Origin: a virus
IMG/VR virus record: IMGVR_UViG_3300034159_000120
Span: 1 to 35,821 of that record
Length of the DNA stretch: 35,821 bases
Strand: one strand, 5' to 3'
This document shows positions 3,217 through 32,936 of the stretch, in pieces. Within the stretch, counting starts at the first letter, position 1. Each line of letters begins with the position of its first letter. A program made the translations under genes and the position numbers. The notes below the pieces were generated by a model. That model was not told the DNA's origin. It saw nothing but the letters and a program-made list of their open reading frames with translations, and did no database searches.

Positions 3217-3417
3217 CGCCACACCCCCGCCGCGTCGCCGGCCAGACACGCGGCGGACACCGAACCGTCATGAACGGGCGAAACGAACGGGCAGAGAAAT
3301 GGCGACATAAAGGTTCCCGGATTAGCGGGCGGTTAGGGCGCCGGGCGCGGCGCCGATTTCGGCGAGGGCTTCACAGCCAGGCCCCATGGCCCAGCACATG
3401 ATCGGCAGGGACATCCG

Positions 3418-3438
3418 AAAAAAAACCCGCGACCGGGT
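3418..3438 (-). terminator. Short rho-independent terminator after the Cro-like gene
   Basis: Read on the minus strand, a 5 bp stem (ACCCG/CGGGT, 3438-3434 with 3429-3425) with a 4-base loop is followed directly by eight T. The stem is short, so it may be leaky, attenuating early leftward transcription between the Cro-like gene and the replication genes. The rest of the 3217-3483 gap holds no gene I can support; a 30-codon frame there has no ribosome binding site. Confidence 0.5.
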
Positions 3439-3483
3439 GCGATGCCGGGGCGGGCTGGGAGGAGCAAGAAGCGAGAAATGAGG

Positions 3484-3693
3484 TCACGCCGCGCAATCCT
3501 CGTTTTCCGTTTCTATCTCGCTTAATGCAGAAAGCAAGTTCTGAACGGATTTCAGTCCGGGAGATTCGTATCTACCGCATGCAAATTTGCTAATCCAACT
3601 AATTGACATGCCTGATTTTTCTGACAGCAATCCATACTGCCCGCGAAGAGCGGCAACCCTAGCCCTAAGAGTGGCGAGATCGATGGTTTCCAT
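3484..3693 (-). CDS. Cro-like helix-turn-helix regulator
   Basis: This encodes 69 residues, divergent from the CI-like gene at 3761. Residues about 18-45 form a helix-turn-helix (LSEKSGMSISWISKFACGRY), giving the size and place expected of a lambdoid-type Cro. The region is noticeably AT-richer than its neighbours. Its start lies only 13 bases from operator O1, so it is likely repressed by CI and in turn binds the same operators. No strong Shine-Dalgarno is visible before ATG 3693. Confidence 0.8.
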   Translation of the reverse strand: METIDLATLRARVAALRGQYGLLSEKSGMSISWISKFACGRYESPGLKSVQNLLSALSEIETENEDCAA

Positions 3694-3705
3694 ACAAATC
3701 AGGCT

Positions 3706-3719
3706 AGCACTTTAGTGCT
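3706..3719. promoter_or_regulatory. Operator O1 of the phage switch
   Basis: The palindrome AGCAC-TTTA-GTGCT lies in the 67 bp Cro/CI intergenic region. It shares the half-sites AGCAC/GTGCT and the 4-base spacer with three further sites at 3729, 4157 and 4188. The repeat is seen directly; binding by the CI or Cro product is inferred from position. Confidence 0.8.
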
Positions 3720-3726
3720 GGCTCGG

Positions 3727-3744
3727 CAAGCACCCTTGTGCTTG
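3727..3744. promoter_or_regulatory. Operator O2 of the phage switch
   Basis: CAAGCAC-CCTT-GTGCTTG is a perfect palindrome with 7 bp arms, the most symmetrical of the four sites. Its centre lies 23 bp from that of O1, roughly two helical turns, which suits cooperative binding of dimers. It sits just upstream of the CI ribosome binding site (GGGAGG), so occupancy would also autoregulate CI. Confidence 0.8.
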
Positions 3745-3760
3745 TTCGGGAGGTCAGGAT

Positions 3761-4120
3761 ATGAAGATGGACGGAAACACCCGAGCGGCCATCGCCCGCA
3801 ACGTAAAAATGCTTAGAGAATCAATATCTCTAAGCCAATCTCAGCTTGCCGCAAAAGCCGGCATCGGCCAAACGTCAATCTCCAACATGGAGCAACCGGA
3901 CGGGAAGAGCCCCACATCCGACACACTAGATAGTGTGGCGCACGCACTCAGAGTCCCCCCTTGGGTTCTTATGCTTCCCAACATCCCATCCGATCAAGGG
4001 ACGTTGAAACAGCTGGAAAAGTTGGCTCTCACCTATATCGCAGTCAACGATGATGGCCGCCGTACCATTGACACCATCGCGGAAGCCGAAGCCCGATACT
4101 TCTCCCAGCTGATCGCCTAG
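3761..4120 (+). CDS. CI-like XRE-family phage repressor
   Basis: This encodes 119 residues with a clear XRE helix-turn-helix at about residues 14-66 (LRESISLSQSQLAAKAGIG, QTSISNMEQ). The tail of about 50 residues is too short for a LexA-like self-cleaving domain, so induction probably does not use RecA-stimulated autocleavage. The antirepressor gene downstream would supply an alternative route. A strong ribosome binding site (GGGAGGTCAGGA) precedes the ATG; a second ATG two codons later is possible. The gene is flanked on both sides by operator pairs. Confidence 0.88.
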   Translation: MKMDGNTRAAIARNVKMLRESISLSQSQLAAKAGIGQTSISNMEQPDGKSPTSDTLDSVAHALRVPPWVLMLPNIPSDQGTLKQLEKLALTYIAVNDDGRRTIDTIAEAEARYFSQLIA

Positions 4121-8040: not shown

Positions 8041-8330
8041 CGTACCAACCCGTAGGATGCGGTGACGAAGGAACCGCATCGTTCGCTGGCGATGCGGTTC
8101 CTTCGTCGCCGCATCCTACGGCATTGCATGGGGTCGCCTTGGAACCGCTTATTAACTGGCTTGAGCGCCAGAACGGGGCAATTCTCTACGTTCACTCCGA
8201 TGGACGTATCACGCTGCGCCTTGGGCCGTTTGGCTCGGATCTGGCGAGATCCGACCAGGAAGAGAAAAAGATCACTGGTCAGGGAATGATTGATACGCTT
8301 GAGAAAGCGCGGTCCGCTTTTCCAAGCTAA
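8037..8330 (+). CDS. Hypothetical protein with a palindromic repeat inserted in frame
   Basis: This encodes 97 residues, coupled by ATGA to the previous gene. Residues about 6-28 (VGCGDEGTASFAGDAVPSSP and on) are encoded entirely by the 72 bp palindrome at 8050-8121. The rest (LEPLINWLERQNGAILYVHS, then a short strand-rich segment) looks like ordinary coding sequence. Either the palindrome has inserted and stayed in frame, or the true start lies after it (for example GTG 8131) and only the latter part is made. Confidence 0.55.
   Translation: MTYQPVGCGDEGTASFAGDAVPSSPHPTALHGVALEPLINWLERQNGAILYVHSDGRITLRLGPFGSDLARSDQEEKKITGQGMIDTLEKARSAFPS
8050..8121. repeat. 72 bp near-perfect palindrome (REP/MITE-like)
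   Basis: Two 32 bp arms (8050-8081 and 8090-8121) pair at 31 of 32 positions around an 8-base loop. The outer part is CCGTAGGATGCGG, and inside each arm is a smaller GATGCGGT/ACCGCATC inverted repeat. A half-length relative occurs at 32897-32936, so this is a dispersed element rather than a local hairpin. Confidence 0.8.
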
Positions 8331-8773: not shown

Positions 8774-8989
8774 ATGTTCGTCTCCCCCACCGACATCGCC
8801 ACCCTCACCGGCTACAAACGCCAGGCGTCCCAAATCGCCTGGTTGCGCGCGCACGGCTGGGTCTTCGAGATCGGGGCGGACGGCCGCCCGAAGGTCTTGC
8901 AGTCCTACGCCGAGCGCCGGTTGGGCGGAGTAGACTCCCGGCCCCGAGAACCCAAGTTAAGGCTACCCGGCACCCGCCAATCGGCATGA
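8774..8989 (+). CDS. DUF4224 domain protein
   Basis: This encodes 71 residues. It matches the DUF4224 pattern of a short winged-helix-like domain: FVSPTDIATLTGYKRQASQI, then WLRAHGWVFEIGADGRPKVL. The family is usually found next to phage integrases and is thought to bind DNA, perhaps as an accessory to excision or regulation. It lies 1.2 kb before the integrase here. ATG is 6 bases after the preceding stop. Confidence 0.8.
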   Translation: MFVSPTDIATLTGYKRQASQIAWLRAHGWVFEIGADGRPKVLQSYAERRLGGVDSRPREPKLRLPGTRQSA

Positions 8990-9070
8990 GTCGCCACCGC
9001 AAGACAGCCGAAGCGATGGAACTACGGCCATTATTAACGTTTTGATTTATAACTTATTGTTAGGTGATTT

Positions 9071-11525: not shown

Positions 11526-13742
11526 TCACACCTCAATCTCCACTCCCTCCATCTCCGGCGCCGCCCCCTCGATCCGCCCGCCGCGCACCCACACCACGTC
11601 GCCCTCGGTGCCCTCCCCGCGCACCCGGAGGGTCCCGCCGCCGATGGGGCTGACTTGGACGGTGCCGTCCGCATAGACGTCGGCGATCTCGCCGACCAGG
11701 AGCGGGTCGTCCGGGAGCAGGCGTTTCCACTTGGCCCACACGTTGGGGGTTTCCTCGCCGAGGGTGAGGGTCTGGCGCACGGCCGGGGCGGAGCTGCTGG
11801 CGCTGACGGAGACGCCGTTGACGATGCCGCGGATGTCGCCGGTCTCCCCGGAGAGCTCGACCGCGAGGAGGTCCCCGATGTTGACCAGGGGGAACAGGCC
11901 GCCGAGGGGGATAGAGAGGGAGCGGATCTCGGGCTGCATGTGTTGGGCGGCGAGCAGGCGGGAGCCGAGCAGGCGGGCGCCGTCCGCGTGGGTGATCCAG
12001 GGGTGGGCGACGGTGGGCGCGGCGCGATCTCCGGCGGACCCCGCGCGGATGACCCGGGCGAGCAGGCCGCCGACCTCTAGGCCGTGGACGTAGACGGCGT
12101 TGGCCTGGCTCGGGACGGACTGGCGCCGGGCCAGGGTCATGATGGCGGAATCCGGGACGATCAAATCCGGATCCGCCGCGGCGAAGTCCCACGGTAGGAC
12201 GGGGTAGCGCGGTTGCACGGTGAGCGCCTTGGCGGCCATGGCGGGCACGATGACGAGCCCGACCTCCGCGGCGGCGGCGTGCATGGCTTGGATGGGGGTG
12301 GCGTTTTGCCAGCTCCAGGCGCCCGCCGGCAGAAGCCAATCGGGGGTGCCGGGCGCGAAGGTCAGGGTCCACCCGGCGCCGAACGGCAAGCGTTCGGTCA
12401 GGGCTTGCTGGACGCTGCGGGCCTCGCCCAGGACGCCGGATTGGGGGAGCTCCGAGGGATCGGACAGCCAGGCGGTGAGCCCGCGACCGCTGGCCGCGAT
12501 GCGCCGGGTGGCGTGGGTGCGGTCCTCCGCCCAGTCCTCGACCAAGAGGTGCCAGACGTGGGCGTCGATCGATGCCTCCAGGACCACCGGAACCCCGGAT
12601 GCCGAGGCCTGGACGGCTTCCAGGGCCGTGCGCCCGAGGAGCGTCCCGGACCACTTCCAAGCCCAGGAGTCGGCATCGAGCAAGACCGATAGGGAGGCAT
12701 GTTCGATGGGGAGGCGGTCCGGGAGGCGGACGAGGGAGATGGCATGCAGCACGAGGTAGCTCCTCTGGCGCGGGATGTGGGCGGCGAGGACGAACGCGCA
12801 CCCGACGACTCCGAGATCGAGTCGGCCCCCGGTGAGCGGATAGCCGAGGCAGAGCCGGGCGGTCCAGTTGGGCTCCCAGGGGCCGGGCGGCTCGGGGGGC
12901 GGCGGGCGGCGACGTACGTACAGGCAGAGCTGCGCATAACGCCAGCTTCCGAACAGCGAGACCGGAAGGAACCCGGCTTTCTTGAAGTCGAGGAACAACC
13001 CGCGGGAGACGGGACCGCCCGCGCGCCACGATCCCGCGAGCGGCGCGGCAACGAGAGGCATGCCGCGCAGCCACGTTGTGGGGACACCATAAGCGCTCGA
13101 CCGTCCCGGCCGCCACGACGCGCCCGACCCGGCAACCGCCCGGTCGGAGGATACCCAATAGGCCGCCACCCCTCCGGGGGCCGGGCCCGCCGCGCGAAAC
13201 GCGGACACCGAGATCGACGAGCGCGTCAGCGCTTGGTGCCAGGATGAAACGCTCCCGGCGGCGGCCAGGGGGGCGCTCGCGAACGACGCTACCGTGCCAC
13301 AGTGGACCGGCATGGAGCCACGGAATTGCTCGACCGCGGGGGCGCCCACCGTCGCGGCGCCGCGCCAGGATGTCTCGCGCAGGGCTACAACATCGGACAG
13401 CAGGTTGGGATCGTAGGCGACCGACGTAAAGCTGCGGGGCGCTTGGGTGCGCGCGTACAGCCGCACCTGCCGCACGTCGCGCACCGTCCCGGACAACTGG
13501 GGAGGATGGGTGGTTTCTGCAACCCGGACCGGTTCGATTTGTCCGAGCGCACCGGACAGACGCGGGGAGCGCGTTTTGCCAGCGACGACGACGGCCGGAA
13601 CTCGGTATGCAGCGACCGCCAACTGCGGCGGACGCGTCTTGCCCTGGACGGTGACTTTCCGGTCGTTATCCGTCGCTCCTAAATCGAGGCGCCCGGTGCC
13701 GACCGGCCCGCCGAGATTGAGTGTTCCTGACCCAAGAGGCAC
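11526..13742 (-). CDS. Tail hub / baseplate-type minor tail protein
   Basis: This encodes 738 residues and is the last gene of the late operon. The N-terminus has four 21-residue repeats (TRPPQL, TRSPRL, THPPQL, TQAPRS at about residues 36, 57, 78 and 99). The C-terminal 350 residues have hub-like features: PIQAMHAAAAEVGLVIVPAM, RYPVLPWDF, and a terminal OB-like beta segment (VSPIGGGTLRVRGEGTEGD). Late position after the tape measure and large tail genes supports a tail-tip role. The start is GTG 13742 with CGGGAG 8 bases upstream. The exact fold is inferred. Confidence 0.7.
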   Translation of the reverse strand: MPLGSGTLNLGGPVGTGRLDLGATDNDRKVTVQGKTRPPQLAVAAYRVPAVVVAGKTRSPRLSGALGQIEPVRVAETTHPPQLSGTVRDVRQVRLYARTQAPRSFTSVAYDPNLLSDVVALRETSWRGAATVGAPAVEQFRGSMPVHCGTVASFASAPLAAAGSVSSWHQALTRSSISVSAFRAAGPAPGGVAAYWVSSDRAVAGSGASWRPGRSSAYGVPTTWLRGMPLVAAPLAGSWRAGGPVSRGLFLDFKKAGFLPVSLFGSWRYAQLCLYVRRRPPPPEPPGPWEPNWTARLCLGYPLTGGRLDLGVVGCAFVLAAHIPRQRSYLVLHAISLVRLPDRLPIEHASLSVLLDADSWAWKWSGTLLGRTALEAVQASASGVPVVLEASIDAHVWHLLVEDWAEDRTHATRRIAASGRGLTAWLSDPSELPQSGVLGEARSVQQALTERLPFGAGWTLTFAPGTPDWLLPAGAWSWQNATPIQAMHAAAAEVGLVIVPAMAAKALTVQPRYPVLPWDFAAADPDLIVPDSAIMTLARRQSVPSQANAVYVHGLEVGGLLARVIRAGSAGDRAAPTVAHPWITHADGARLLGSRLLAAQHMQPEIRSLSIPLGGLFPLVNIGDLLAVELSGETGDIRGIVNGVSVSASSSAPAVRQTLTLGEETPNVWAKWKRLLPDDPLLVGEIADVYADGTVQVSPIGGGTLRVRGEGTEGDVVWVRGGRIEGAAPEMEGVEIEV

Positions 13743-22180: not shown

Positions 22181-22507
22181 TTAAACCTCTGGATCGGTCG
22201 GCTCGGTTGAGCCTGGCGTATAGGTCGCCACTGCGGCGGCCAGCTCATTGGTTTGCGCGGCCAGACGATCGTTGATGTCGTTGACCGCGACCCAATCGCT
22301 TGCGGCAATAGCGGCATCGAGTGAAGTTTTCAGGTCTTGCAATAATAGGATGGCGGAATCGCCTGCGTTTTCGATAGCGGAAACGCGTTGGACGAGAGTG
22401 TCGAGTTTTTCGTTCATTCGTTTGATCTCTGCGGTGATATTGAAAATCGCCTGAATTGGTTTGGTTATCCAGTCCGGCGGATAGCGGCCTATGATGAAAA
22501 CCATCAT
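22181..22507 (-). CDS. Small helical tail-module protein
   Basis: This encodes 108 residues from ATG 22507, overlapping the previous TGA as ATGA. The N-terminus is hydrophobic (MMVFIIGRYPPDWITKPIQA) and the rest is helical coiled coil (IKRMNEKLDTLVQRVSAIEN, NDINDRLAAQTNELAAAVAT). Its place just ahead of the tape measure gene is that of tail assembly chaperones, but size and sequence do not prove this. No slippery frameshift sequence was recognised. Confidence 0.75.
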   Translation of the reverse strand: MMVFIIGRYPPDWITKPIQAIFNITAEIKRMNEKLDTLVQRVSAIENAGDSAILLLQDLKTSLDAAIAASDWVAVNDINDRLAAQTNELAAAVATYTPGSTEPTDPEV

Positions 22508-23141: not shown

Positions 23142-23939
23142 TTACGCGGTACGCACGCGGAATCGATACGGAGCGCCGGGAGTAAATCCGCGCACGGCGA
23201 CGCTTGGGACTAACATATCGCCGCTTAATTCGACGCGCAGATAATCGCCGCCGGTCGCATCGAATGTCCCGGCCGGGGCCAGGTTGGCACGCCAGATGTC
23301 CAGGTCCCCGATTTTCCCGCTCACCTGGTTTTTGGCCTGGCCAGTGATATGGACGTACTTATTGAGGGCGAGTCCGCCTTGGTATTGCTCCCAGGTGCCG
23401 GCCGCCGGGTGATACGAGAGCTTCATCCCGACCCCGACGGCATCGGCGTGAGTGGCTTTGATCATGCCGAGCACATGGTCGATCTCGTACTTGGTGGCGG
23501 CAACGGCCACGTCCGAGGAGGTCACAAGCGCGATCTCGGTGCCGGTGCCGGCCGCGGCGATGGCGTAGTTGGCCAGCGGGACCCACATGCCCAGCACGGT
23601 GTTGACGGCCTCTGACGCGACGGCGGCCGCGGTCTGGGTGACCTCCGAGACGGTGGCGCCCAGCGCGATCGCTTGCAGGTCCGGGGTGAAGGTGGACGCG
23701 GTCAGGGTGACCTGAGCGGTTTTTTCCGTGGGGACGGACTGCGAATCGATGGCGGCCCCTTGGGTGGATGTCATTCTGGAAATGAGTTTTTTGATCTCCT
23801 GCTCGGGCGCGGAGATCTCCAATTTCTCGTTGTTGATGAAATCGGAATAGCTCGTCGGCGGGACGGTGTCTGAGACCCAGAAACCAAAACGGGCCTCTAA
23901 TAGAGTGAATAATGGTGCAGGGGCGGTGCGTAAACTCAT
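23142..23939 (-). CDS. Probable major tail tube protein
   Basis: This encodes 265 residues. It has a beta-rich, Ala/Val/Thr-rich composition, with QVTLTASTFTPDLQAIALGA in the first half and Gly-rich strands at the end (GDYLRVELSGDMLVPSVAVR). Order (after head-tail joining and completion genes, before tape measure) and length fit a siphophage tail tube subunit. GGGAG lies 8 bases before the ATG, and ATTGAAAC just before that. The coding start MSLRTAPAPL is mirrored by spacer 2 of the adjacent CRISPR-like array. Confidence 0.75.
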   Translation of the reverse strand: MSLRTAPAPLFTLLEARFGFWVSDTVPPTSYSDFINNEKLEISAPEQEIKKLISRMTSTQGAAIDSQSVPTEKTAQVTLTASTFTPDLQAIALGATVSEVTQTAAAVASEAVNTVLGMWVPLANYAIAAAGTGTEIALVTSSDVAVAATKYEIDHVLGMIKATHADAVGVGMKLSYHPAAGTWEQYQGGLALNKYVHITGQAKNQVSGKIGDLDIWRANLAPAGTFDATGGDYLRVELSGDMLVPSVAVRGFTPGAPYRFRVRTA

Positions 23940-23960
23940 TAGATTACTCCCGTTTCAATT

Positions 23961-24122
23961 CGCTTTATCCCCGCGCGTACGGGGAACATTTAGCGGCATC
24001 CGCGGCCACATAGCCGCTGGTAGCGCGGTTCGCGGTTAATCCCCGCATATGCGGGGAACATCCCATGACGATGCGTACCGCACCCGCACCGCTCGGTTCA
24101 TCCCCGCAAGGACGGGGAACAT
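23961..24122 (-). CRISPR. Three-repeat type I-E-like mini-CRISPR array
   Basis: The 29 bp repeats are at 23961-23989, 24033-24061 and 24094-24122. All read (plus strand) CGSTT, then ATCCCCGC, a short variable loop, CGGGGAACAT; E. coli type I-E repeats have the same ATCCCCGC/GCGGGGA stem. Spacer 2 (24062-24093) is exactly 32 bp, the type I-E length; spacer 1 is 43 bp with an apparent short duplication (GCGCGGTTCGCGGTT) at its end. On the minus strand the handles are ATAAAGCG, ATTAACCG and ATGAACCG. Spacer 2 would code MTMRTAPAPL, close to MSLRTAPAPL at the start of the neighbouring tail gene. No cas genes are in the window. Confidence 0.85.
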
Positions 24123-24135
24123 TGATCTCATTCTT

Positions 24136-24567
24136 TCAGCGATTCAGCCATCGGGAGATCATCGGCCAATTGGTCCAGACTAACAATGCGACGGACCCGA
24201 TGGCGGTGAGGCTCGAGCTCCAGAGCCAGATGGCCACCGCCGGCCACCGTCGGCGGTCGCGCTCGTTGTCCAGTTGATGACCGCTGAATTCTTTCACTAG
24301 AGTGTCGATTCGCGCATCGATCCGGTCGAGCGTATTGGAGAGGCGGGTGGTCGCTTTGGTGGACTGATCGACGGAGCGGCGCGTGGCATCGTGCGCATGG
24401 GCCAATCCGTTGACCCGGTCTTCGATATGCGCCATCTGCGCGGCATGTAAGGAAATCTCCCGCGCGGTCTTGGCGGCGAGCAGCTCCACCCGCTCCAGGC
24501 GTTGATGACGCAGCGAGAACGCATGCTCCTCGGGCGGCGGACCGACCGGAGGAGGCATGGTCGGCAT
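24136..24567 (-). CDS. Holin-like coiled-coil protein with C-terminal membrane helix
   Basis: This encodes 143 residues: a Pro-rich start, a long helix with heptads (HIEDRVNGLAHAHDATRRSV, TLDRIDARIDTLVKEF), a basic patch (NERDRRRW), then one membrane span (AIWLWSSSLTAIGSVALLVW). This is the layout of XhlA-type hemolysin/holin-associated proteins. It starts in a TAATG overlap directly after the endolysin gene, so the two form a lysis cassette. Confidence 0.75.
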   Translation of the reverse strand: MPTMPPPVGPPPEEHAFSLRHQRLERVELLAAKTAREISLHAAQMAHIEDRVNGLAHAHDATRRSVDQSTKATTRLSNTLDRIDARIDTLVKEFSGHQLDNERDRRRWPAVAIWLWSSSLTAIGSVALLVWTNWPMISRWLNR

Positions 24568-25160
24568 TACGGGACACCGCCCGCCTCATGCTGCCGAGCG
24601 CGCGCATAGGCGAGCAATTCGTCGGCCAGGTCCAATAACTCTTCCGGACTGACCCGCCAATCGCGCAGGGCTTTCCATCCCCAACGGACGGCGATTTCGG
24701 CCAGGGCCCTGGCGATGATCCATTTAGTGGAGGTGACCACGCCGCCGATGGCGACCACGTCTCCCAAGGAGAAGGCGCGGACGGCCTCGCTTTGCAGCGC
24801 CACGCGAGGGGTGCCGCCCCAGCGGGCCTTATAGGGCCGACAGTCGATATGGACCCAGGAACGGTACAAGCCCAGGCCGGACACCGGCCAGCGGGTATCG
24901 CAGAAGCGATAGAGCTCGGCCGGGGAGAGGCCGGCGATCTTGATATCGGCGGCCATGCCTTTGACATGGAAGCTGCGGCTCGCCCCGCCGACTTTTTTGT
25001 TCCAGGCGGGGGACCGGTAGCCGCTGATAATGGCAACCGGGCGACCGAAGCGTTCGCGGACGGCTTCCAGCATTTCGATCAGTTTGGGATCGATTGCGGA
25101 CTGCGAGCCGTCTTTGCACTTGAATTCGCTGACGGAGAAGTGGGTGGAGAGGTCGCCCAT
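24567..25160 (-). CDS. M15-family endolysin (peptidoglycan D-Ala peptidase)
   Basis: This encodes 197 residues. The zinc peptidase motifs are clear: SFHVKGMAADI supplies His65 and Asp72, and WVHID supplies His104; SGYRSPAWNKKVGG is the conserved substrate-loop segment. It probably cuts peptidoglycan cross-links at lysis. About 80 helical residues follow the domain (LADELLAYARARQ near the end), which is longer than the minimal family. There is no signal peptide, so export depends on the holin-like neighbour. It has TAATG coupling at both ends. Confidence 0.9.
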   Translation of the reverse strand: MGDLSTHFSVSEFKCKDGSQSAIDPKLIEMLEAVRERFGRPVAIISGYRSPAWNKKVGGASRSFHVKGMAADIKIAGLSPAELYRFCDTRWPVSGLGLYRSWVHIDCRPYKARWGGTPRVALQSEAVRAFSLGDVVAIGGVVTSTKWIIARALAEIAVRWGWKALRDWRVSPEELLDLADELLAYARARQHEAGGVP

Positions 25161-25807: not shown

Positions 25808-26298
25808 GCGAGGTAAACCACTTGCTCGAAGGAGACGATCCAGGAGTCGATTCCGTGCAGGCCGGGACGGAATCCGCCCTTCTGTCCGTTAGAGCGTTCG
25901 GCCGGATCGACGGCAGGACCCAAGCTCCAGTCCGCCCCGCGGCGGCGGGTATGCGTGGCATCCGGGGGGAAGAGGAGGTCATCCACTTCCAATGACAATT
26001 CGCGTAAGGCGGATTGCAATTTGACCGTCTCGAATCCCAGTAAACAATGAATGTTGACGGAGAAGCGTCGCGGGCGCCGACCCATGGTGTCGGGCTGGCC
26101 GGTGTCTTCCGTATCCCACTGATCCACTTCCAGCAGCAGGGCGGGGGTTTTGATCTCCCGCTCGGCGGCACCGGTTAATTCGTCTTCCAGCTCGTATTCG
26201 CCGTATCGGAACGACGGGCCGAATTGGTCTTTGAGCGCGGCGCGCACGGCCGCGCTATAGGCGGTATAGGTGGTGGTGGTGCCGGCGGGGGGAATCAT
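25804..26298 (-). CDS. Probable tail terminator / completion protein
   Basis: This encodes 164 residues. It has the order helix (YSAAVRAALKDQFGPSFRYG) then strands (KTPALLLEVDQWDTEDTG, RRFSVNIHCLLGF) with a long helix (LQSALRELSLEVDDLL) and final strand (DSWIVSFEQVVYLA). This is the alpha/beta layout and length of gpU-type tail terminators. Position between the minor tail gene and the tube gene agrees. Coupled at both ends by ATGA. Confidence 0.7.
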   Translation of the reverse strand: MIPPAGTTTTYTAYSAAVRAALKDQFGPSFRYGEYELEDELTGAAEREIKTPALLLEVDQWDTEDTGQPDTMGRRPRRFSVNIHCLLGFETVKLQSALRELSLEVDDLLFPPDATHTRRRGADWSLGPAVDPAERSNGQKGGFRPGLHGIDSWIVSFEQVVYLA

Positions 26299-26891
26299 GC
26301 GGCGCGGTCCTCAAGTTCGAGCGCGAACCGCAGCTCTTGGGCGAGGAGGGTTTGGTAGCGTTCGGCGATCTCGGGGGCGAGAATATTGATTTTGTGAATG
26401 ATGGCATCGTGTATAGGCACTAACACGACATCGATTTTTTCAAGATTCGGATTACCGTTGCGGCCGAATTGCCGCGTTCTCTCCATGACCGCCGGACCGG
26501 TTACTCCGCGGCCCCAGGACCAGGTTCCGGGCCAGGTCGTGCGTCCCACTCGGGCGCCTTTCGTATAGCGTCCGGAGGGGGTGCGCTGGGTCCATGTGAC
26601 CTTCCCCAAGTAATGCAATTTGATGGCGTTGGTACCAATCCAAATGACTAATCCCATATCGCCTGTCCGTGTCACCCGGAACCGCACTAACGCCAACAGC
26701 GTCTTTTGCGTCGCCCCGCTGGCTTGGGCGGCCGCTCGCAGCACCTGGCGCCGGGCGAAGGTCTCCAACTTTTTAGCCGCCCGCCGTTGGGCCCGTGCGA
26801 CGCCTTCGGGCGCCCGGTCGAACCGCGCGAGGACTTCGGCCAGGGTCCCCTGGGTATCGATTCGAACAATTTCGGTGCCCAGTCCGGACAT
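26295..26891 (-). CDS. Minor tail / head-tail connector protein (gpZ or HK97 gp10-like)
   Basis: This encodes 198 residues from ATG 26891, one base after the previous stop. The N-terminal helices (LARFDRAPEGVARAQRRAAK, KLETFARRQVLRAAAQASGA) followed by a basic beta region and a long C-terminal helix (PEIAERYQTLLAQELRFALE) resemble tail-completion proteins of the gpZ type. Role inferred from order. Confidence 0.72.
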   Translation of the reverse strand: MSGLGTEIVRIDTQGTLAEVLARFDRAPEGVARAQRRAAKKLETFARRQVLRAAAQASGATQKTLLALVRFRVTRTGDMGLVIWIGTNAIKLHYLGKVTWTQRTPSGRYTKGARVGRTTWPGTWSWGRGVTGPAVMERTRQFGRNGNPNLEKIDVVLVPIHDAIIHKINILAPEIAERYQTLLAQELRFALELEDRAA

Positions 26892-26892
26892 G

Positions 26893-27264
26893 TCAGCGGT
26901 ACCGGTCCGTCTCGCTCGCCCCGCTCGCGCTGGCCGGCATGAGCTCGCAGCGGGTGAGGCCGGCGCCGTCCGGGTCCATCCGAACGATGCGGTAGGGGGT
27001 CCAGCGGATCTGGACTTCGGCCCCTTCGACGACGCCCGCCGCGGCTGCATCCTGCAACCAGACGACGGGGTTGGGCTGGCTGGTGAGCCGCCCGGTGAGG
27101 TCCACCTCCGAGCCCCATCCGCCGCCGCCGGCGGGGTCTCCGATGGGTTCGAATTCGCCGTAGACGGTGCCCAGCGCACCGGGCAGCAGGACGGCTTCGC
27201 CCCCGCCGCGGGTGGGGGAGAGCGCGGCGCGGGAGAGGCGGGCTTGGCGAGAGAGGGCGCTCAA
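26893..27264 (-). CDS. Head-tail joining protein (gpFII-like)
   Basis: This encodes 123 residues, beta-rich. It includes AVLLPGALGTVYGEFEPIGD, LTGRLTSQPNPVVWLQDAAA and GAEVQIRWTPYRIVRMDPDG, a pattern of small head-tail attachment proteins related to lambda FII. It lies directly after the head gene at 27274 on the same strand. Confidence 0.72.
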   Translation of the reverse strand: MSALSRQARLSRAALSPTRGGGEAVLLPGALGTVYGEFEPIGDPAGGGGWGSEVDLTGRLTSQPNPVVWLQDAAAAGVVEGAEVQIRWTPYRIVRMDPDGAGLTRCELMPASASGASETDRYR

Positions 27265-32020: not shown

Positions 32021-32323
32021 ATGCCAGCGCAACGCCTCATTCACTTTAAGAAGCGCATCGCCGACGATTTGGTGAAAGAGGTCAAGGTGTGGCGCTTGCC
32101 GGAACCGCTCCCCGGCAGTGCGCACCCGTACAAGTACAGCCTGGCGTTGATCGCGAACGGCCGCTGTGTGCTGCGCTACGACAACGAGCGCGGGAAAGGC
32201 GACCACAAGCACCTGGGCGAGCTGGAAACGCCGATCGAATGGACCAGCCTTAACGCGCTGTTGGCCGATTTTGACCGCGACATTCAATGTTGGAGGCAAG
32301 CAATTGGAAACGCTGACGATTGA
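32021..32323 (+). CDS. TumE-family toxin (DUF6516)
   Basis: This encodes 100 residues: VWRLPEPLPGSAHPYKYSLA, then LIANGRCVLRYDNERGKGDH, then a short C-terminal helix (ALLADFDRDIQCW). The RYDNERGKGDHKH segment is the hallmark of TumE-like toxins. It is on the plus strand inside a minus-strand late region, with its own operators, so it is an independently expressed moron likely to stabilise lysogeny or block competitors. The start lies immediately after an operator with a poor ribosome binding site. Confidence 0.85.
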   Translation: MPAQRLIHFKKRIADDLVKEVKVWRLPEPLPGSAHPYKYSLALIANGRCVLRYDNERGKGDHKHLGELETPIEWTSLNALLADFDRDIQCWRQAIGNADD

Positions 32324-32654
32324 AGTAGCGACCGACGATGAGTTTAACGCGCGGATCGTGCGGGCCGTCGAGCGCGAGGAGCCGCAACCGCCGGGGTATT
32401 TTTTCGACACCGATGAGGCGCTGCTCGACACGCTCACGGGCAACCGCTTTGCGGTCATCAAGGCGTTGGCAGGGGCCGGCCCGCTGGGGGTGCGCGAGCT
32501 GGCACGCCGGGTGGGTCGCGATGTGCGCGCGGTCCACGCCGATGCCCAGCGGCTAACGTCCATCGGGCTGATCGACAAGACCGATGACGGCAAGCTGCAT
32601 TTTCCTTATGCGGGGGTCGATATTCATTTGAGATGGGGCGCGAAGGCAGCTTGA
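32304..32654 (+). CDS. HVO_A0114-family HTH protein, antitoxin partner
   Basis: This encodes 116 residues from TTG 32304, which has GGAGG 7 bases upstream and overlaps the toxin end by 20 bases. The C-terminal half is a winged helix (LAGAGPLGVRELARRVGRDV, RAVHADAQRLTSIGLI, DDGKLHFPYAGVDIHL). Proteins of this family pair with TumE toxins and probably repress the operon at the two palindromes upstream. Confidence 0.82.
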   Translation: METLTIEVATDDEFNARIVRAVEREEPQPPGYFFDTDEALLDTLTGNRFAVIKALAGAGPLGVRELARRVGRDVRAVHADAQRLTSIGLIDKTDDGKLHFPYAGVDIHLRWGAKAA

Positions 32655-32876: not shown

Positions 32877-32896
32877 AGTTTTTCCCGATCAGTGCA

Positions 32897-32936
32897 GTAG
32901 GATGCGGTGAGCTTGTGAACCGCATCATTCGCGATG
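32897..32936. repeat. Partial copy of the GTAGGATGCGGT palindromic element
   Basis: It begins GTAGGATGCGGTGA like the left arm of the 72 bp palindrome at 8050-8121, with the same inner inverted repeat GATGCGGT/ACCGCATC (32901-32908, 32919-32926) but a different loop and no full right arm. It sits in the gap between the genes at 32664 and 32980. Confidence 0.75.

Follow-up and report, generated by a model that had tools for sequence, protein, structure and literature searches.

A leaderless, cas-less type I-E-like mini-CRISPR array in a temperate siphophage, with a spacer matching the tail gene start of a close relative

The DNA analysed here, called the window, is the whole stretch of 35,821 nucleotides of the IMG/VR virus record IMGVR_UViG_3300034159_000120. 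Profile searches of its 37 ORFs, which come from our own simple ORF calling, identify the carrier as a temperate siphophage. Its structural and packaging genes encode a gpA-type terminase, a lambda-type portal, a capsid protein, a phage minor tail protein and a major tail protein (phrog_807). Genes for an integrase, an HTH repressor and an antirepressor, on which the temperate character is based, are also present, together with a VapE-type helicase gene. Between two minus-strand genes, the intergenic gap 23940-24135 (196 nt) contains three repeats (Table 1). None of the 37 ORFs matched a cas family in Pfam-A (E 1e-3). The initial annotation of three I-E-like 29-nt repeats in a gap of this length, with no cas genes, is confirmed. 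The array has no leader, the first repeat (R1) lying 13 nt from the upstream gene, and no sigma-70-like promoter was found within 23900-24700. Linked cas genes and a leader are required for cellular arrays, and dispensable for phage mini-arrays. RNA folding of the gap gave a z score of -3.3, but with the repeats paired to each other in the best structure, which makes it little informative. One other contig (L003/G001) carries the same array; it is identical to the window across 23,621 of its 23,641 bases, and therefore brings no independent evidence.

Table 1. Features of the array and its surroundings (positions in the window)
Feature	Position	Strand	Description
Major tail protein gene	23142..23939	-	phrog_807, E 4e-26; 265 aa; N-terminus MSLRTAPAPL
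Own homologue of the protospacer	23911..23942	+ (crRNA sense)	21/32 identical to spacer 2; AAT, not AAG, at 23908-23910
Repeat 3 (R3)	23961..23989	-	ATGTTCCCCGTACGCGCGGGGATAAAGCG; stem of 7 bp, one pair being G-U (by eye); handle the most degenerate of the three
Spacer 1	23990..24032	-	43 nt, outside the I-E length; source not found
Repeat 2 (R2)	24033..24061	-	ATGTTCCCCGCATATGCGGGGATTAACCG; 7-bp stem (by eye)
Spacer 2	24062..24093	-	32 nt; antisense to the tail gene start of a relative; 30/32 in G002, with 5' AAG
Repeat 1 (R1)	24094..24122	-	ATGTTCCCCGTCCTTGCGGGGATGAACCG; stem of 7 bp, one pair being G-U (by eye); handle ATGAACCG
Gene upstream of the array	24136..24567	-	143 aa; no family match; 47% identity to G002

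Read on the minus strand, the 29-nt repeats have the form ATGTTCCCCG(NNNNN)GCGGGGAT followed by a handle, with three copies inside 162 nt. The handles of R1, R2 and R3 are ATGAACCG, ATTAACCG and ATAAAGCG, i.e. a full match to ATGAACCG, one change and two changes respectively. A length of about 29 nt, a 7-bp stem (stems were read by eye) and a 3' handle of the ATGAACCG type are the marks of a type I-E repeat, and all of them are found here. By eye, the 7-bp stems are intact in all three copies although the loops vary; given the differences in the loops and in the R3 handle, the array may be decaying. Repeat starts are spaced by 61 and 72 nt, leaving spacers of 32 and 43 nt. Spacers of type I-E measure 32-33 nt; of the two, only spacer 2, at the 61-nt spacing, has this length.

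A degenerate search for the repeat motif (up to 3 mismatches) returned only these three places in the window, and none in 100 shuffles. As the motif was fitted to the three copies, the shuffles exclude chance for their mutual likeness only, and independent support for a CRISPR comes from cellular arrays. The initial annotation had set two refutation tests, and the repeats passed theirs: against 369 genomes from the class to which the nearest terminase relative belongs, the R2-spacer-R1 unit aligned in register with I-E arrays in 6. Five of these cellular loci were examined; they contain 27-50 repeats, which are distinguished from R1-R3 by 3-7 of 29 positions. Terminase relatives (80 of 85 loci) were at best 53% identical, in Candidatus Thiodiazotropha, with many from Pseudomonas and marine genera. 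No close prophage was present among the genomes of these 80 loci, and Cse1 was found in none of the 17 genomes tested out of them. Comparison of about 20 kb of the phage with the same 369 genomes did not reveal a host either; apart from the array alignments, it gave one 65% match of 794 bases, in the Thiodiazotropha genome, and other short matches.

On the plus strand, spacer 2 reads CCC-ATG... and encodes MTMRTAPAPL, while the minus-strand tail gene starts with MSLRTAPAPL. The resemblance described initially (20 of 29 bases the same) was recovered, and amounts to 21/32 across the full spacer. Within the window a nucleotide match of this size does not exceed chance, 100 shuffles reaching up to 23, and the peptide score, 40 versus 37, is slightly above 15 shuffles. 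We nevertheless count the match as real, because a relative matches at 30/32.

This relative, IMGVR_UViG_3300034358_000028 (G002, locus L004), is the only IMG/VR contig besides the identical twin of the window with the degenerate MTMRTAPAP start. It has segments of at least 350 nt in common with the window, at 72-93% identity; between the two tail proteins the identity is 90%, and no array-like repeats were seen in G002. A BLAST search over the collected loci placed spacer 2 at the start of its tail gene, with 30/32 identities and an E value of 1.3e-7. On the crRNA strand the protospacer is flanked by GTGAAG, i.e. with AAG at the very edge, and AAG is the PAM of type I-E. The two mismatches fall at crRNA positions 6 and 24. 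Cascade ignores mismatches at every sixth position; both being third codon positions, there is about 1 chance in 5 that both would be multiples of six. With this relative the initial annotation passes its second refutation test, and its proposal that spacer 2 was taken from the homologous gene of a related phage is supported; no donor matching at 32/32 was found. Against named phages, spacer 2 gave E values of 0.9 or weaker among the best 20 of 53 records. For spacer 1, a degenerate peptide pattern hit 12 loci including the array itself, and BLAST was run against collected loci, phages and plasmids; both returned only short, weak matches. Similarity between spacer 2 and G002 extends over 7 of 8 bases into R2 (24054-24061), on the side away from the PAM, and the end of R2 resembles the ribosome site at that place in G002.

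The carrier's own copy of the target, 18 nt from the array, carries 11 mismatches out of 32, two of them in the seed (positions 2 and 3); with its AAT flank it would, judged by sequence, escape the guide. At the start of the tail gene, 8 of 10 codons differ from those of G002, versus 105/264 in the gene (P=0.011), and synonymous changes amount to 6/7 at the start versus 79/238 (P=0.006). This is modest evidence that the own gene start was recoded under self-targeting. The first codons of four other genes are equally altered relative to G002 (8/10 in 26295-26891, 7/9 in 26893-27264, 7/9 in 22181-22504 and 8/9 in 24136-24567), with changes that mostly alter amino acids. Local divergence may thus be all that lies behind the altered codons of the tail gene, and recombination beside a divergent gene could leave the same codon pattern.

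We consider that these observations are best explained, with a probability of about 0.7, by a leaderless, cas-less phage mini-array of type I-E that lends a crRNA to the host Cascade-Cas3 and thereby excludes close relatives. From the sequence we infer transcription, processing, a host I-E system and interference, as follows. The array shares the direction of the late genes, in whose transcription it would be included; Cas6e of the host would cut the repeats, and the spacer-2 crRNA would be loaded into the host Cascade. Cascade would then direct Cas3 to the start of the major tail protein gene of a co-infecting or superinfecting close relative. The carrier genome would be spared, its own gene start having no AAG PAM and differing at 11 of 32 positions. 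The temperate gene set and the recurrence of the pattern in other phages (below) speak for this explanation. Spacer 1 counts against it, since at 43 nt it is a non-standard I-E guide, and so do the lack of Cse1 in the 17 genomes tested, the differences among the repeats, the negative promoter search, the missing 32/32 donor, the chance of mere local divergence at the own gene start, and the 12 of 19 surveyed short arrays that lack a neighbour-matching spacer.

Arrays of this kind have been described. In the Sulfolobales viruses SPV1 and SPV2, mini-arrays are directed against relatives, own sites are mutated and targets lie near the arrays, the origins and consequences of this closeness being called unclear in that report (Medvedeva 2019, PMC6858448). 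Like the present array, those described there have 1-2 spacers, no cas genes, a spacer against a close relative, a mutated own site and a nearby target; they differ by leaders with promoters and an archaeal host, whereas ours is a bacterial type I-E array, leaderless and with one spacer of odd length (PMC6858448). Leaderless phage arrays, some aimed at adjacent genes of relatives, are credited to Faure 2019 (as cited in PMC6858448); as in our case, some of their spacers match such genes in close relatives and not in the carrier (PMC6858448, PMC7099407). As these citing papers present them, we noticed no difference in kind from the present locus (PMC6858448, PMC7099407), which adds to them an array-less relative with the I-E PAM and a diverged own allele. 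A modelling paper (PMC7099407) and a 2024 review (PMC11656645) treat virus mini-arrays as an established class. Carried by a virus, with two spacers, one of which matches a related virus, with an own allele that by sequence escapes it, and lacking cas genes, the locus belongs to this published class. Repeats identical to those of the host are a further mark of the class; the cellular I-E repeats examined here differ at 3-7 of 29 positions. The initial annotation gave the use of host Cas proteins against relatives as known for some archaeal viruses; the adjacency of spacer and target is less unusual than it claimed (PMC6858448). The interest of the present case is that it is bacterial, that a relative lacking the array has been sequenced, and that the PAM is the right one: the phage apparently steers the host CRISPR against its kin.

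The divergence of the array leaves some room for an inert relic, in which repeats and spacers gained by recombination with a host array are now decaying and have no function. Repeats and handles have diverged, spacer 1 is 43 nt long, 13 nt stand in place of a leader and no promoter was found, all as such a relic would have it. However, the stems are kept in the three repeats despite the loop differences, and both the handle of R1 and the spacer-2 unit have canonical form. Spacer 2 moreover targets a close relative of the carrier, at the very locus where the array sits, something unexpected for a random host spacer; we hold a relic to be unlikely. Phages also carry CRISPR repeats without cas genes in intergenic gaps as RNA anti-CRISPRs (Racr), which would mimic host repeats and tie up Cas6e/Cas7, and Racr candidates are widespread among phages (PMC10651486). 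These are solitary repeats, and the published search, as described, drops clustered ones (PMC10651486), whereas here three repeats lie within 162 nt around a targeted spacer. Since the 32-nt spacer moreover has a PAM-flanked target in a relative, a Racr is very improbable. A crRNA that binds imperfectly is used for repression in CreA-like systems, and the partly matching own site close to the array would suit repression of the carrier's own tail gene; with its AAT flank, its seed mismatches and 11 differences out of 32, and with a better target offered by the relative, such self-regulation is scarcely credible. Hardly any credence is left, finally, for hairpins beside a leftover tail gene start, inverted by rearrangement, without any CRISPR: the similarity to G002 does reach 8 bases into R2 (38/41 bases overall), but the exact 32-nt spacing, the I-E handle, the in-register cellular match and the AAG exactly at the edge speak against it, and the remnant would need an inversion.

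How often such arrays lie beside their targets was surveyed in IMG/VR, where two pattern scans yielded 28 contigs with I-E repeat pairs, 29 with the window. Five long arrays (L013, L017, L019, L020, L148) were set apart as a control and five duplicates (L005, L009, L022, L152, L153) were excluded. What remained, counting the window, were 19 distinct short arrays of 2-3 regular repeats, from which 24 spacers were tested. From L016 the 74-nt spacer was omitted, from L012 a stretch of about 120 nt that follows its extra repeat, and from L023 another motif pair, which scored below its null. The arrays had been selected by their repeats, not by targets. Seven spacers matched their own locus above 100 shuffles, six of them near the array, with gaps of 0 (L155), 71 (L015), 309 (L011), 366 (L012), 559 (L151) and 672 nt (L146). 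The L151 match is marginal, above its null by one base only, and without it near matches are 5/24. The seventh, in L149, is also above by one base, lies 7.3 kb away and is excluded from the neighbour matches. For L155, the match abuts the last repeat: masked at first, it was noticed in the printed sequence and counted after the mask was narrowed. Of the 30 spacers in the long-array control, one scored a single base above its 60 shuffles, with the match lying 3.4 kb off. The contrast, 6/24 near matches in short arrays versus 0/30 in the five long ones (Fisher P=0.005), is indicative only, as contigs with long arrays are maybe host-like, their mask was wider, and 60 rather than 100 shuffles were used. 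At the peptide level (12 distinct arrays, 15 shuffles), L011, L012, L015 and the window were above the null; a match in L007, one point above 15 shuffles and 1.9 kb away, was not counted. The window is thus a further neighbour case by peptide and by its relative, not by nucleotides, while 12 of the 19 short arrays have no neighbour-matching spacer. On this survey, proximity to the target seems to be a recurrent trait of such arrays.

The flanks of the seven own sites are AAT (window), AAG (L015), ACG (L011), CTT (L012), AAA (L151), CGC (L146) and CTT (L155). L015 alone retains AAG; it has 6 mismatches, four within the last five bases. Its array sits in the gap preceding a small gene, and two relatives, L144 and L145, have the flanking sequence of L015 without the array, with targets matching at 31/32 and 30/32, each flanked by AAG. 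The L015 insertion is bordered, relative to L144 and L145, by a repeated AAGTAG, akin to a short target-site duplication. In L155 the spacer spans the likely ribosome site and the start codon of the next gene; the carrier's own start abuts the last repeat, whose end, CTT, occupies the place of the PAM. A second short I-E repeat pair lies about 1.6 kb from the first in L155, and its spacer, tested separately, had no neighbour match. The matched neighbours include a deoxycytidylate deaminase-like gene in L011 and a KilA-N gene with a Rha-like part in L012. Degenerate patterns for the donors of the L011 and L012 spacers matched only the arrays' own loci. An extra I-E repeat (8853-8881) is found in L012 about 120 nt from the array, and within 8853-9005 (+) these 120 nt or so resemble, by eye, the 3' terminus of another allele of the adjoining KilA-N gene, as though one allele had taken the place of another next to the array. 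The duplicate arrays L014/L022 and L008/L009 are 99.9% identical throughout their shared stretches, so that they are uninformative on the transfer of patches.

Array, exempt allele and target position thus come together in 7 of the 19 short arrays, of which one is a marginal case. That the weapon lies next to the exempt allele could be due to linkage or to homing. By linkage, a phage that recombines would not acquire the weapon unless the exemption came along. In a weaker form of the homing reading given next, the linkage would persist only because recombinants with the array but a sensitive allele destroy themselves. Homing would go further, phage mini-arrays being RNA-guided homing elements for which the host Cascade-Cas3 cuts a relative at the empty site of the array; repair from the carrier would then copy the array and the adjacent resistant allele into the cut relative. 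If true, this would explain why the weapon is found together with the exempt allele and the target position, both here and in as many as six other phage loci. In intronless homing of the T4 SegF type, a free-standing enzyme cuts near its own position and its own allele is exempt. An array-less target allele near the insertion point and a diverged own allele are cleanly found for L015 versus L144/L145; for the window versus G002, the target is the start of the next gene, the gaps align uncleanly and the insertion point is approximate only. Because Cas3 shreds long stretches of DNA, which could hinder repair, we regard homing as doubtful. A homing endonuclease also acts as a weapon between co-infecting phages, as one account has it (PMC11620839), and the cutting of a co-infecting relative is common to both; the present locus differs in using an RNA guide and a host nuclease, no endonuclease being encoded, with transfer of the array hypothetical. 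A limited check of the literature, covering parts of the sources, met no homing proposal for mini-arrays. Sets of phages such as L015 with L144/L145 make it testable whether exclusion alone or spread by cutting is at work.

Some further observations were made in passing. Against named phages, the repeat-spacer-repeat unit gave E values of 0.8 or weaker among the best 40 of 129 matches. Saccharomonospora phage PIS 136 (JX006077.1), at 12901-12975, matches 83% of the unit at 72% identity (E 3), in 3 places that are unannotated, and is possibly a named phage with I-E-like repeats. In the window, a gene for a TumE-like toxin (PF20126) is followed by one for an HVO_A0114-type HTH protein (PF25212) at 32021-32654 (+), on the strand opposite to the structural genes; the two are likely a toxin-antitoxin pair. 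The window and G002 also contain several direct and inverted copies of a sequence of 30-77 bp (8051-8120 and 32890-32934 in the window, about 3407-4103 in the L040 locus of G002), and the second copy in the window has short matches in three further genomes (G188, G047, G379).
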